Positions 3,379-11,066 of a stretch of DNA of 26,703 nt are shown here, one piece after another. The DNA lies in the IMG/VR virus record IMGVR_UViG_3300042888_000594, positions 1 through 26,703 of that record. One strand, 5' to 3'. Under the pieces are notes generated by a model. The model did no database searches, was not told the origin of the DNA, and saw only the letters and a list, made by a program, of their open reading frames with translations. The translations under genes were made by a program, and so were the position numbers. Origin of the DNA: a virus. Numbering within the stretch: position 1 is the stretch's first letter; each line of letters begins with the position of its first letter.

Positions 3379-4635
3379 TTAACAGCCCGAAATTACGTCC
3401 ATGGGCTCCCAATCGTCATCTGCTTCTTCAAAGTAGCTAGTTATAGCTAATTGGTCTACATAACTAAGACTATCGGGTAAATCGTCGTGGACGCCTTGAG
3501 ATGGAAACATCAAGAGCTGGTCCACGAACACAGACCAGTCTTCTTCGCTGTTCAGGACGATTCTACCGTGTTCAAACCGCCCCTGCAAAGACCAAATCAC
3601 CCGGTCGGTCTTCTTCCGGTTGCCGTGCGTCAGGTCCACGATGTGACTGTACACGTTGTTCTTCCGCATAAGGTCTGACAAATACGGCAGAACCGCGTTT
3701 TTTAACGCCCCTCTTTCGATCCCGATGCTCAGTGGCCGATAGTCGCGCATCTTCATCAGTATCTTGGCGGCTGTTTCCCTCACGTCCCAGCGTCCGTGTT
3801 CGATCTCTTTCACAAACCACTTGCCGTCGTCCGTCACCTTGACGACTGCAATCGCCGACTCGTCCAACCGCTTCTTGCTGTTCGCCGCCTGCTTGGCCAC
3901 TTCCTCGAACCCGGCCAAGTCCACCGCCACGAAGTAGCTCCCGTAGTCCGGTTCTTCACCGTACTTCAGCCACTCCTCTTTGAACACATCCGCGCCCGCA
4001 TTCGAGAAACTCGCCAGGTATTCCTGCTTGAACGCAAACGTGCTCAGCGTCTTCTTGGCCGACTCGATCTCCGACGGGTCGATCAGCGGGTTGTCCTGCG
4101 TGGTGAAGTGCCAGCTTTTCCAGTCGCTGTCCTGCTCGTCTTGCCCCAACTTCCACAGGTCATGGAACCAGTTTCTACCCTTTGGCGACCCAATAAATAA
4201 CCCGCGACCTTTCTTATCGGACAGCGACGCCCTGATAACTTGTTCCCAAGCCTCGGGCTTAATGTCCGCCACCTCATCGAGTACGGCGTAGGTCAAAGAC
4301 ACCCCGCGCAAAGTATCTGGTCGGTCTGCCCCGCGCACATAAATTCTTGCGCCGTTAATCAAGGTGATGTCCAGGTTATTGACGTGGCTGCTTTGAATGA
4401 CATCGCGGCCCAAATCCAACAACAAATCCCAAATGATCTGACGGCTCTGCCCCATCGTCGGGCTGACGTACAAGACCGCCGACCCTTGCGGGCAGCGCAA
4501 CCCCTCGATGAGCAACGTAATTGCCGACAGCCGCGACTTTCCACAGCGCCGCCCTGCGGCAACAACCTTGAATCGGGTTTTGTCTTTGAAAACTTGCTCC
4601 TGCCATGGCAAGAGGGCGAAGGATAAATCAGCCAT
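3379..4635 (-). CDS. terL: Terminase large subunit
   Basis: This is the ATPase-nuclease motor that packages DNA into the procapsid. At 418 aa it is compact but complete. The ATPase domain shows Walker A GRRCGKS (residues 28-34) and Walker B YAVLDEVAD (D120-E121). The RNase H-like nuclease domain shows FVAVDLAG (Asp near 240), an acidic residue in GIERGA (near 306) and the late HDDLPDSLSY motif (near 386). These fit the Terminase_6/6C type. The ATG at 4635 is preceded by AAGGGA at good spacing. It overlaps the stop of the upstream EndoVII-type gene by 8 bp. Two HNH nucleases bracket it, and a small-terminase candidate lies just beyond. Confidence 0.95.
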   Translation of the reverse strand: MADLSFALLPWQEQVFKDKTRFKVVAAGRRCGKSRLSAITLLIEGLRCPQGSAVLYVSPTMGQSRQIIWDLLLDLGRDVIQSSHVNNLDITLINGARIYVRGADRPDTLRGVSLTYAVLDEVADIKPEAWEQVIRASLSDKKGRGLFIGSPKGRNWFHDLWKLGQDEQDSDWKSWHFTTQDNPLIDPSEIESAKKTLSTFAFKQEYLASFSNAGADVFKEEWLKYGEEPDYGSYFVAVDLAGFEEVAKQAANSKKRLDESAIAVVKVTDDGKWFVKEIEHGRWDVRETAAKILMKMRDYRPLSIGIERGALKNAVLPYLSDLMRKNNVYSHIVDLTHGNRKKTDRVIWSLQGRFEHGRIVLNSEEDWSVFVDQLLMFPSQGVHDDLPDSLSYVDQLAITSYFEEADDDWEPMDVISGC

Positions 4636-5639: not shown

Positions 5640-5652
5640 GGTCAAATAGTCA
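5640..5652. promoter_or_regulatory. Operator-like site D (GGTCAAATAGTCA)
   Basis: It matches 12 of 13 bases with GGTCAAATTGTCA at 6115-6127 and, inverted, at 6233-6245. It directly touches the -10 candidate of the terS operon. Read toward the gene it controls it is TGACTATTTGACC, the same orientation relative to the downstream gene as the other copies. Confidence 0.4.
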
Positions 5653-5717
5653 TTTTTTCCATTTTCACTTTTTCAGAATGGCAGAAGGTCCTGTAACTTT
5701 TTATCTAACAGCCAGAC

Positions 5718-5838
5718 CCCTCCCCCCCATGCTTTAGGCTTCAACCTTTGAGGCTTCAAGCAAACTGCGAGCGGCTTGGAGCTGAGAGCACTTAACATAA
5801 CGTTGCAGTGGGAGCATGGGGGCCGGAGGGCCCTTTTT
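5718..5838 (+). other. Structured non-coding element: long hairpin with alternative terminator fold
   Basis: Bases 5718-5733 pair with 5813-5830. A 10-bp perfect arm (CCCCCATGCT / AGCATGGGGG) and a 6-bp arm (CCCTCC / GGAGGG) are separated only by a 2-nt bulge. Inside, 5753-5761 (GCTTCAAGC) pairs with 5774-5782 (GCTTGGAGC), and AGGCTTCAA is directly repeated at 5736 and 5751. The 3' arm can instead form GGGCC-GGAG-GGCCC followed by TTTTT (5820-5838), a rightward terminator that excludes the long stem. There is no supported ORF here. It could be a rightward small RNA, an attenuator or anti-terminator switch, or a DNA packaging site beside terS. I see no convincing promoter for a rightward transcript. 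Confidence 0.4.
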
Positions 5839-5842
5839 GCCA

Positions 5843-5862
5843 GTACTTGACCGGGTACTTGA
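5843..5862. repeat. Direct repeat GTACTTGA x2
   Basis: GTACTTGA occurs at 5843-5850 and 5855-5862 with a 12-bp period, just downstream of the 71-aa regulator gene (in its reading direction). A repeat spaced about one helical turn suits a dimeric DNA-binding protein, but two short copies are weak evidence. Confidence 0.3.
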
Positions 5863-5873
5863 TGCGCTGTCTG

Positions 5874-6089
5874 TTATGCCGAATTGTTATATCTGTTATC
5901 TGAAAACAGCATATCTTCGAGGTTGTCGCCAGGGCGAAAACCCGCATTGTGCAACACTGTATAAATTGACAGCAATTCTTTGAACCCGCGTGTCAAGTCA
6001 CCTTGACCAGCTGTCAGCAAAACAGCGCGATCTTGATCTGTCAATTTGCGCTGAAATTCAACTGTGTCTAACTTGCATGGTCTAACCAT
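5874..6089 (-). CDS. Small putative DNA-binding regulator (71 aa)
   Basis: I do not recognise a named family. The N-terminus is a short strand-like stretch (LDTVEFQRKL). It is followed by helix (TDQDRAVLLTAG), turn (QGDLTRG) and helix (FKELLSIYTVLHNAG), which is the strand-helix-turn-helix order of ribbon-helix-helix proteins. The last 20 residues are polar. AAAGG precedes the ATG at 6089. Operator-like site A lies 13-38 bp upstream of the start, a position suited to autoregulation. It stands alone between the structured element at 5718-5838 and the divergent control region, so a switch between the leftward and rightward programmes is a reasonable guess. The fold call is inference from pattern. 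Confidence 0.6.
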   Translation of the reverse strand: MVRPCKLDTVEFQRKLTDQDRAVLLTAGQGDLTRGFKELLSIYTVLHNAGFRPGDNLEDMLFSDNRYNNSA

Positions 6090-6101
6090 TGGAAATGCCT
6101 T

Positions 6102-6127
6102 TCTGGGTCATCTAGGTCAAATTGTCA
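6102..6127. promoter_or_regulatory. Operator-like site A (TCTGGGTCA-TCTAGGTCA-AATTGTCA)
   Basis: The block TCTRGGTCA occurs twice in tandem and is followed by AATTGTCA. Site B at 6233-6249, read inverted, is the same sequence with only one TCTGGGTCA block. It lies immediately upstream of the 71-aa regulator gene. Confidence 0.5.
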
Positions 6128-6194
6128 CCCTAATTTTATCGCCCAATCCTACGCAGCGTGTTTTTGGCGTGTGTCTGATTCTGGGCTGTTCACC

Positions 6195-6206
6195 TATATA
6201 TATATA
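6195..6206. repeat. (TA)6 tract in divergent control region
   Basis: Twelve alternating T/A bases sit in an AT-rich stretch (6191-6240) between operator-like sites A and B. It is easily melted DNA that could serve a promoter or a replication origin. No -35 partner at usual spacing is evident. Confidence 0.35.
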
Positions 6207-6232
6207 CCCTTACATAAAAGTTCATAAAATAA

Positions 6233-6249
6233 TGACAATTTGACCCAGA
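6233..6249. promoter_or_regulatory. Operator-like site B (TGACAATTTGACCCAGA)
   Basis: It is the perfect inverse of the core of site A: TGACAATTTGACC is the reverse complement of 6115-6127, and TGACCCAGA that of 6102-6110. It reads toward the rightward genes starting at 6416. Confidence 0.5.
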
Positions 6250-6282
6250 ATCCCCGCAAAGCCGCGCCAATGCTAGCTTTCC

Positions 6283-6323
6283 TCTGGGTCAAGTCGCCCC
6301 GAAAAGATGACAATTGATTGTCA
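6283..6323. promoter_or_regulatory. Operator-like site C and palindrome TGACAAT-TG-ATTGTCA
   Basis: TCTGGGTCAA at 6283-6292 repeats the outer block of sites A and B. Fifteen bases on, 6308-6323 is a perfect 7-2-7 inverted repeat built from the inner TGACAAT block. This is the expected shape for a dimer-binding operator upstream of the rightward operon. Confidence 0.45.
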
Positions 6324-6362
6324 AGACATAACACAGCCTAAGGGTAAACACCTAGAAAATAC

Positions 6363-6383
6363 TGGTAAAATATCCTTTACAAT
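6363..6383 (+). promoter_or_regulatory. Promoter -10 candidates for rightward early operon
   Basis: TGGTAAAAT at 6363-6371 is an extended -10 form, and TACAAT lies at 6378-6383. Either would start transcription 25-45 bp before the ATG at 6416, which has GGAG upstream. No clear -35 is present, which fits an extended -10 or an activated promoter. Confidence 0.35.
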
Positions 6384-6415
6384 AGAGACTCACACAATCC
6401 AATGGAGTAAACGAC

Positions 6416-6655
6416 ATGAAATACGATCACACAGATTTTTTGGCTAACCCTAAAAAGTACAGCCTGTTTAAGACAGCGACGACAGCAGCGCATTTTTTCG
6501 GTGAAGACGGTAACGACTTACCCGAAGGCACGATTGTGGGCCTTGAATACTTAGGCGTAAGGCGCAACCAACTCTACAGACGCGACGAAGCGATCTATCG
6601 CCTTAACACTGGTCACACTGTTTACGCTAACTCACTGGTCAACTTTGTACTGTAA
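6416..6655 (+). CDS. Hypothetical small early protein (79 aa)
   Basis: I do not recognise this protein. It is soluble-looking, starts MKYDHTDFLANPKKYSLF, and has a central LPEGTIVGLEYLGVRRNQLYRRD that looks like small beta structure. The ATG is preceded by GGAG at suitable spacing. It is the first gene of the rightward block, immediately downstream of the operator-rich control region, so early expression is likely. First early genes of phages often encode host-takeover or anti-defence proteins, but nothing in this sequence proves that. Confidence 0.7.
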   Translation: MKYDHTDFLANPKKYSLFKTATTAAHFFGEDGNDLPEGTIVGLEYLGVRRNQLYRRDEAIYRLNTGHTVYANSLVNFVL

Positions 6656-8785: not shown

Positions 8786-8808
8786 AGGGGCCCTTAGGGG
8801 CCCTTTTT
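8786..8808 (+). terminator. Rightward intrinsic terminator
   Basis: AGGGGCCC and GGGGCCCT fold over a TTA loop with one central G-G mismatch, followed directly by five T. It closes the 6416-8744 operon. The T-run includes the last base of the convergent primase-helicase stop codon. Read leftward there is no T-run, so it acts in one direction. Confidence 0.75.
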
Positions 8809-11066
8809 CATGTGTTCTCAACGGAGCGCCTGAGCTCCGATTTGCTCATGCGCACGTTATCCGGAGCGCAAAATATGTGTTTCTTGCTCGGGTAATCCTG
8901 CGCAGCGATCCGGCCACAGTCAACCCATCCGGCCTCTTTGATCGCGTGCAATAGAGCACCCTGGACGACCTTAACACCCTGCGGCGCGAGACCCTGCAAG
9001 CGGTCACACAGCGCATGGAAGGGCGAACCAATGACACCACGGGCAAACTCGCCAGACTTGCGGCGCAGCATGTCCACAATGAAGGCTTCGGCAGTGCTCA
9101 TGCCGTGTTCGATCATGATCTGCTTAGCCTCAGTTACGGGCGGCGGTGCGGACGGGTTCCAAGCCGAGACATCCCGCGTGTGCAGGTAATGGGCGACTGC
9201 CTGGAACCCGTTTTGATGCTTGTACCAGTTCCACAGCGCCAGTGCCTCACGCTCAGTTAACCGGGCGGCTTCGCACCAAATGACAAACCAACGGCGGTCT
9301 TCTGAGGGCAGGGAGATAGCGACACGCTCGTTTGAGAACGCAATCACGAAAAGCCGATTGAGGGCATAGTAGGGGTGCAGACCCTTGCGGTTGACGGTCA
9401 GCAGCTCAGGCGGCGCAGCGATGATGGGTTTGAGGGTGTTCTCCAGTGCGCGGCGGTCCTTGGCGTCAGCTTGGCGCAGCTCTGAGATCTCCATCACTTC
9501 GCATTCGAGGGCGTAACCCCACTGTGAGGTGAGGTCTTCATTCTTGACCAGCGAACAGTTGCGCTTGGCGTCACCACCGATGGCCCAAAAGAACGGCGCG
9601 AACATGGTGTCCTTGCCCGAGCCGTGCGTGCCACCCATCAGGATCGCGTGGTTGATCTTATGGCCGGGGAACTGGACCTTGTGGGCGAGAGCGTTTAAGA
9701 GGTGCTCACGCTCGAACTTCTCGGGGACTAAGCGCTCGACATGGCGCAGCCACGGGGACACGTCACCCGCCACTGGTTGAGGGCGTGCGTTAACCCATCG
9801 GTTGCCGTAGGTTAGCCCGTCCCGGTTGACAATCGTACCCGCGCCAGCGGCGTAGGTCACACTGACCAGCGACTGTGCGCCCTTGTCCTGGCGCTGCTCA
9901 TCGAACGAATAGCTGGCCTCAACCTTGCGGCCATTGTGAACAGACTTGCAGCCGATGTGCCGGAACATGGCATTGAAAGTGGAGCGCGACAGCTCGCGCC
10001 TGTCTTGCAGGTCAAAATAGGCGTCATCGTCTTGCAGGTAGGCGAAGCGGTCCCACCAGTCGGCCTTTTCGACCCGCGCCATTTCCTTGCGCTGAGTTTC
10101 GGCCACCACTGTAGCGGCCACGTTGGGGAACTCGACCGTAGGCGTCAGTTTAGACAGGGCCGACTCCATGGCGCTCACCAGCAGCTCGTCGCGCAGGCCG
10201 GGCGAGTGGACCGGGCCGCCACTGTCGGCCACCCACTTGAGGAAAACGGTGGAGTCCAGATCTAGGCAGTGCGAGTGCAGGCAGCAGTAGGCGCGGCTGG
10301 TGGGCAGGTAGCGGCCCTCGGGGTTGCCGTCGGTGTGCTCGGCAGCGTTGGGGCAGGCCACGGCAGCCCAGCCTTCTTGGTTCGGGTTAGAGAGCACCAG
10401 GCCGTTATCCGACAGCCACGCCATCACGTCGTCGCCACCATCGTCTTGGACTCGGACCGGGGCGTAGACCGACTCGACCGGGCCCGGCGTGACGTTCATG
10501 GCCGCGCACAGATCTTCGAGGGTGTACTCACGCTCTGGGTTGAACTCGACCAGCGCAGCGGCGAAGCTGTCGCGGCCCGGTTTCAGGTTGATCGAGCCGG
10601 GCAGCCGGAAGTTGCGCACGGCGTTGATTGCGCCCTTGTCGGTGTAACCCGCCTCGGCGATGGCCTTGATCGCGGCAGCGAAATCACCCTTGCGCGGCTG
10701 CTCACTGAAGGCGTAGCCCCACTGAAACGAGCCGGGCGATGTCTCCATGATCCAAGTCGGGGGCAGGGGGCAAGTGTTGGGCACCTTGTCCGTGCCCACG
10801 TCGTCCAGCACCATAACGATGACGAACTCGCAGTTAGCAGCGGAGGCGCTGACGTGGCCATCCTTGAAACGGTCAACGATGAAGCTGGCGGTGTTGCCGT
10901 ACCAAGCGCCGGGTTTCATCTTGTGGCCGGGCAGGAACGCTGGCCAAGTCGCCTTGATTGCGCCGTCGGCGTGCAGTTGAATCTCACGACCGACGGGTTT
11001 TTGCAACACCATCAAAGCGGTCTCGCCCTCAGCGGGCAGTGAGCAGATATAACTGATAAAATCCAT
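8808..11066 (-). CDS. Primase-helicase fusion (RepB/PrimPol-like N-terminus, SF3-type helicase C-terminus)
   Basis: This 752-aa protein joins priming and unwinding. Residues about 60-185 resemble RepB-type (archaeo-eukaryotic) primases: FVIVMVLDDVGTDK supplies the acidic pair and VRNFRLPGSINLKPGR is the late conserved motif. A Cys/His cluster follows at about 233-268 (CPNAAEH, then CCLHSHC), which is zinc-binding in appearance. The helicase half has Walker A GGTHGSGKDT (near 480), ECEVMEISELRQ as Walker B-like, and FVIAFSNERVAISLPSEDRRW, the DUF5906/NrS-1 helicase style. AGGAG precedes the ATG. It is the last gene of the leftward replication block, downstream of the DNA polymerase after a 75-bp gap holding a hairpin. 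Confidence 0.85.
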   Translation of the reverse strand: MDFISYICSLPAEGETALMVLQKPVGREIQLHADGAIKATWPAFLPGHKMKPGAWYGNTASFIVDRFKDGHVSASAANCEFVIVMVLDDVGTDKVPNTCPLPPTWIMETSPGSFQWGYAFSEQPRKGDFAAAIKAIAEAGYTDKGAINAVRNFRLPGSINLKPGRDSFAAALVEFNPEREYTLEDLCAAMNVTPGPVESVYAPVRVQDDGGDDVMAWLSDNGLVLSNPNQEGWAAVACPNAAEHTDGNPEGRYLPTSRAYCCLHSHCLDLDSTVFLKWVADSGGPVHSPGLRDELLVSAMESALSKLTPTVEFPNVAATVVAETQRKEMARVEKADWWDRFAYLQDDDAYFDLQDRRELSRSTFNAMFRHIGCKSVHNGRKVEASYSFDEQRQDKGAQSLVSVTYAAGAGTIVNRDGLTYGNRWVNARPQPVAGDVSPWLRHVERLVPEKFEREHLLNALAHKVQFPGHKINHAILMGGTHGSGKDTMFAPFFWAIGGDAKRNCSLVKNEDLTSQWGYALECEVMEISELRQADAKDRRALENTLKPIIAAPPELLTVNRKGLHPYYALNRLFVIAFSNERVAISLPSEDRRWFVIWCEAARLTEREALALWNWYKHQNGFQAVAHYLHTRDVSAWNPSAPPPVTEAKQIMIEHGMSTAEAFIVDMLRRKSGEFARGVIGSPFHALCDRLQGLAPQGVKVVQGALLHAIKEAGWVDCGRIAAQDYPSKKHIFCAPDNVRMSKSELRRSVENT

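Follow-up and report, generated by a model that had tools for sequence, protein, structure and literature searches.

Repeated words between two divergent transcription units of a freshwater podovirus are likely replication-origin iterons that change together with the wing of a helicase-primase

A family of short repeated sites occupies the intergenic region (6090-6415) that separates two divergent transcription units in a 26.7-kb IMG/VR fragment of a freshwater podovirus encoding a P22/SU10-like portal and a large terminase. The question raised by this locus is which protein reads the sites and what they are for. We analyzed the whole fragment (IMGVR_UViG_3300042888_000594, 26,703 nucleotides, here called the window) together with its relatives, and we consider it likely that the sites are the iterons of a replication origin at 6090-6415, bound by the wing of the phage's own helicase-primase, with wing and words changing together. 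The features discussed are collected in Table 1. Rfam and tRNA scans of the window gave no matches, its GC skew was uninformative and gave no origin signal, and evidence on hosts is limited to bins of Rhodoferax and other beta-proteobacteria.

Table 1. Coordinates of the features discussed, in window positions
Feature	Position	Strand	Remarks
Putative terS, 121 aa	5242..5607	-	upstream of terL (3379-4635); identity from position and conservation
terS-proximal site GGTCAAATAGTCA	5640..5652	+	minus strand TGACTATTTGACC, then TACAAT
71-aa protein gene	5874..6089	-	first in the leftward late unit; fold not assigned
Candidate left iteron cluster	6102..6127	+	half-site TCTGGGTCA at 6102-6110 and composite GGTCAAATTGTCA at 6115-6127
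AT-rich stretch between the inverted composite sites	6194..6235	.	candidate unwinding element; contains tatatatata
Candidate right composite iteron site TCTGGGTCAAATTGTCA	6233..6249	-	inverted partner of 6115-6127; GGTCAAATTGTCA on the minus strand at 6233-6245, TCTGGGTCA inverted at 6241-6249
Outer half-site TCTGGGTCA	6283..6291	+	sequence read directly
Two opposed TTGTCA words, TGACAAT-TG-ATTGTCA	6308..6323	.	not kept even by the closest relatives
First gene of the rightward early unit	6416..6655	+	replaced by other genes in relatives with the same word (L004)
752-aa helicase-primase (DUF5906), proposed initiator and word reader	8808..11066	-	Pfam DUF5906, E value 2.9e-10
Predicted wing hairpin, codons 715-733	8868..8924	-	AlphaFold strands 715-722 and 725-733; covariation peak

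Reading the sequence confirmed every site position listed in an initial annotation of the window, including those of GGTCAAATTGTCA, GGTCAAATAGTCA and TCTGGGTCA. Its proposal of a set of related sites also proved right for the starts of two divergent units: GGTCAAATTGTCA with at most one mismatch has exactly three matches in 26.7 kb, compared with 0.01 expected, and none of 100 shuffles gave as many. All three matches are intergenic; at three mismatches, the count (16, compared with 6.9 ± 2.6) was near background. The sites are thus genuine and not a product of chance, and they form a family of putative protein-binding words beside two divergent starts. Each composite site consists of two short words in tandem, repeating every 8 bp in the window's lineage and, as read from the sites, every 9 bp in most other lineages. 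Several copies of one short word cluster in the region in both direct and inverted orientation, as in iteron origins. The left cluster immediately precedes the start of the 71-aa gene (6089), and the stretch at 6194-6235 includes a 40-mer that is joint AT-richest in the window. The element at 6308-6323, described earlier as a perfect palindrome, turned out to be two 7-bp arms flanking a non-palindromic center; one half of it is kept in L006, and its counterpart in L004 and L005 is two direct TCTGGGTCA words.

About 250 relatives in IMG/VR retain the layout of two facing composite sites with AT-rich DNA between them and extra copies outside. In closer relatives, the composite sites mostly lie about 90 to 160 bp apart upstream of the 71-aa gene, with half-sites outside. 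The 50 bp inside the first arm averaged 75% AT in 95 relatives, compared with 45% for the whole locus, and an AT-rich region between iterons, another feature of iteron origins, is therefore present. The word itself, by contrast, differs between phages (GGGTCAaatTGTCA, TAGTCAtgTAGTCA, ATGGTCAaATGGTCA, TGTGGACAATGTGGACAA, GAGGGCAATGAGGGCAA and GTTGGCTATGTTGGCTA). GGGTCAaatTGTCA is the word of the window and its neighbors, TTAGTCAtgTAGTCA that of L009, L017 to L019, L025 and others, and further relatives use ATGGTCA, TGTGGACAA, GAGGGCAA, GTTGGCTA or CACGTCA. Within one phage, all array sites carry the same word, and the array copies follow the word class (6-mers of the phage's own word exceeded those of other words in 94 of 95 phages); the counterparts of the left cluster at 6102-6127 change their word together with the other sites. 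Counted on a helicase-body tree, the word label, which was assigned by pattern and is imperfect in a few cases, changes at least 31 times.

We looked for the reader of the words by comparing 19 window genes between 13 phages of the GGGTCA class and 8 of the TAGTCA class. Residues that separated the two classes perfectly occurred in only 1 of the 19 genes, that of the helicase-primase, and there only in the C-terminal tail (721 A/M, 726 P/T, 740 and 741). This protein has a DUF5906 helicase domain; Pfam gave no match to a bacterial-type (Toprim/DnaG-like) primase domain and only a sub-threshold one to RepB_primase. Four further scans with helicase tails yielded 334 loci with that C-terminus. 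In a relatedness-corrected sliding-window scan of the last 310 helicase residues in 63 distinct phages with both the 71-aa gene and a site, the association with word similarity peaked at residues 718-727 (partial r = 0.46, compared with a median of 0.004 elsewhere) and reached at most 0.205 N-terminal of residue 712; none of 2,000 permutations attained the association observed for segment 719-728. We also performed a mutual-information test on 147 non-redundant loci, many of them lacking the 71-aa gene, with words shuffled within clades. Residues 721, 722 and 726 together carried 2.33 bits on the word, compared with 1.705 ± 0.056 after shuffling (0 of 2,000), and the best columns were 721, 726 and 723. 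Columns beyond the wing scored as well (690, 731 and 739 by mutual information and 630 in the sliding window).

Pairs of phages gave an equivalent picture. Where bodies were at least 97% identical, word similarity was 0.94 if the tails were at least 90% identical (465 pairs) and 0.65 if they were at most 50% identical (93 pairs); in the clearest pair, L112 and L061, the bodies are 99.6% identical and both wings and words differ. In the other direction, an MS..[TS] wing accompanies TAGTCA on distant bodies (L009, L361, L288, L291, L223 and L209), and a KS..D wing accompanies TGTGGNC words in nine clades. A locus from a bacterial genome collection, binned with Rhodoferax (L415), had played no part in deriving this wing-word code; it has the wing KSRRHDSKK and the site TGTGGATAATGTGGACAATG, and its word is the one predicted from its wing. 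Two further genome-contig loci with the helicase and downstream DNA (L412 and L413) had no clear site. Among named phages, the best helicase homologue (49% identical, uncultured podovirus MW202483) had, in the region searched, a self-palindrome only and no comparable array. The iteron sequence is thus specific to its own initiator, as in iteron origins, to the extent that covariation of sequences can indicate. In a search of the open literature, we found no description of such covariation.

The AlphaFold model of residues 578-752 was confident over 658-752 and placed a helix, a short strand, two helices and a two-strand hairpin in the order of a winged-helix domain. A Foldseek search with the model returned no significant PDB match, so that the winged-helix assignment is one of predicted topology, and a PDB profile search with the tail gave nothing meaningful. 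The covarying residues 718-728, chiefly 721, 722, 723 and 726, lie on the hairpin, at the tip of the predicted wing, and the presumed recognition helix (702-711, the ALLHALKEAGW region) hardly varies across word classes. The most parsimonious reading is that the word is selected by the wing; in the model, specificity appears to reside in the wing and not in the recognition helix. We propose only tentatively, and with less confidence than the origin itself, that the wing is a compact recognition module in which about four residues (721, 722, 723 and 726) set the word, and that the family keeps rewriting its origin language because it is costly to have one in common with co-infecting phages, satellites or origin-directed nucleases.

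The initial annotation had suggested another reader, with the sites serving as operators through which a small phage regulator, such as the 71-aa protein, coordinates early and late transcription. In favor of this, each of the two divergent starts has sites, a related site precedes terS, and the 71-aa protein is small, conserved and modeled as helix-helix. It has 25 close relatives in IMG/VR and many more homologues near related terminases, but L009 shares its residues 1-55 unchanged with the window and nevertheless has another word, which argues that the protein is not the reader. Moreover, its partial correlation with the word was just 0.18, falling to 0.12 once the helicase tail was included, and sites were called in 114 loci with at least 5 kb of downstream DNA and no detectable 71-aa homologue, some of these calls being noise (in loci without the gene, automatic calling catches unrelated palindromes in perhaps one-third of KSD phages). 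Neither Pfam nor PHROG matched the protein, Foldseek with its model found no fold match, no profile or fold search supported a ribbon-helix-helix (the monomer model consists of helices with no strand), and named phages contained no homologue. We therefore rejected the 71-aa protein as the word reader and consider operators of it or of a similar regulator very improbable. The first early gene was also discarded as a candidate reader, since other genes take its place in L004, whose word is unchanged.

If the helicase-primase tail is the reader, the words might still be transcriptional operators, with the replication origin elsewhere. The sites do coincide in part with the starts of two units, half-sites are densely packed at the 71-aa start codon, and covariation by itself cannot distinguish an origin from an operator. 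However, the AT-rich core between inverted iterons and the precedent of initiator helicases that bind iterons through a C-terminal domain (PMC4234260, PMC7581432) favor an origin, and we regard the operator explanation as unlikely. Covariation could also arise solely from co-transfer of the helicase 3' end and the array as one recombining block. Nucleotide identity between the window and TAGTCA-class phages indeed falls abruptly at codon 717 (from 0.86 to 0.56 versus L018), which resembles recombination. Against this, several exchangeable genes separate the helicase gene from the array, the same pairing of wing and word reappears on bodies only 50 to 70% identical with different flanking codons and in up to nine clades, and hitchhiking would not restrict the signal to the wing; co-transfer as the only cause has, in our judgment, hardly any chance of being correct.

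In the origin model that we favor, a C-terminal winged helix of the helicase-primase would bind the iterons through the wing hairpin (residues ~718-728). The protein would assemble on either side of the AT-rich stretch at 6194-6235, open it and then prime, and wing and words would have changed together many times within the family. Binding of the initiator probably also dampens the promoters of the 71-aa gene and of the rightward unit, as the outer iterons overlap both start regions. The sequences themselves establish the layout, the concerted switching of words and the covariation of wing and word, whereas physical binding, origin function and promoter control are inferred.

The closest functional likeness is to P4 alpha, which combines primase, helicase and a C-terminal winged helix in one protein, the winged helix binding origin repeats (PMC4234260). 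The window protein likewise has a helicase domain, with a C-terminal tail whose predicted topology fits a winged helix, and the repeats are its candidate target. P4 alpha has a bacterial-type primase domain, which the searches described above did not detect in the window protein, and by analogy we suggest that the latter works like P4 alpha without classing it as a member. To our knowledge, large-scale word switching with wing covariation has not been described for P4. SaPI Rep and SCCmec Cch2 are also initiator helicases in which a C-terminal domain recognizes short iterons (PMC7581432). Their origins lie directly downstream of the helicase gene, whereas the window array sits between divergent units at a distance of about 2.6 kb, and they work with a separate primase, whereas primase and helicase are fused in the window. 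In the PLE satellites of Vibrio cholerae, the origin covaries with the DNA-binding domain of RepA, and the two have been exchanged together as a module more than once, possibly driven by an origin-targeting phage nuclease (PMC8263062). The PLE protein is of the RepA_N type and exchanges a whole domain between two replicon types, whereas the present case involves a small variable element of about ten hairpin residues, at least eight word classes and at least 31 changes, within the phages' own replication module. The replication proteins pRN1 Orf904 and that of phage BIP-1 share the broad plan of primase/polymerase, SF3 helicase and C-terminal winged helix; a stem-loop origin without iterons has been proposed for both (PMC4234260), whereas the window's relatives have iterons.

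For freshwater podoviruses of an abundant, uncultured group, the locus thus points to where replication may begin. It also offers a natural experiment on target change, with near-identical proteins that have different targets and distant proteins that have the same one, and the question of why phages keep changing the word of their own origin becomes testable.

The site near terS behaves differently from the array. The initial annotation had placed it under the same regulator; its sequence TGACTATTTGACC resembles the window's iteron, but it is near-identical in TAGTCA-class phages, in which the other sites have switched, and absent in phages with other words. Its match to the phage's own word (10.0 of 14) was only slightly above that to foreign words (9.3). 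The site does not follow the word class and was excluded from the iteron system; most likely it is a promoter or operator element in its own right. The putative terS has no PHROG or Pfam match and is conserved in relatives. Before it lies a conserved noncoding element of about 65 nt (5667-5732, minus strand; ATGGGGGGGAGGGG...AAAAAGTTACAGG...CTGAAAAA), kept in at least 110 loci and 69 variants whatever the word class. It gave no convincing covariation for RNA structure and is perhaps a packaging site.

Other elements were observed around the array. In several relatives (window 6090-6127 and class B), the distance from TAGAAT to the ATG that begins the 71-aa homologue is only some 6 nt, which suggests a leaderless transcript starting inside the iteron array. 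Many relatives (for example L125, L138 and L290) have recurrent GTTAGTGAGCACTCACTAAC-type palindromes downstream of the helicase gene, between the array region and terS. A second layout is found upstream of the 71-aa homologue in L021, L059, L078, L034 and L041, with words such as TTGCACA, CTTACACA, GACCCTAA or CGCCCCTAA around a near-constant GGGGCAAAACAGC core and a long dyad. In L021 and L041, the second-layout loci with long flanks, we found no homologue of the window's helicase, and another initiator may thus read these words. Near the rightward promoter of the window, CCTAAGGGTAAACACCTAGAAAATA (6338-6362) is almost constant across word classes, unlike the iterons, and is possibly a separate operator or promoter element.
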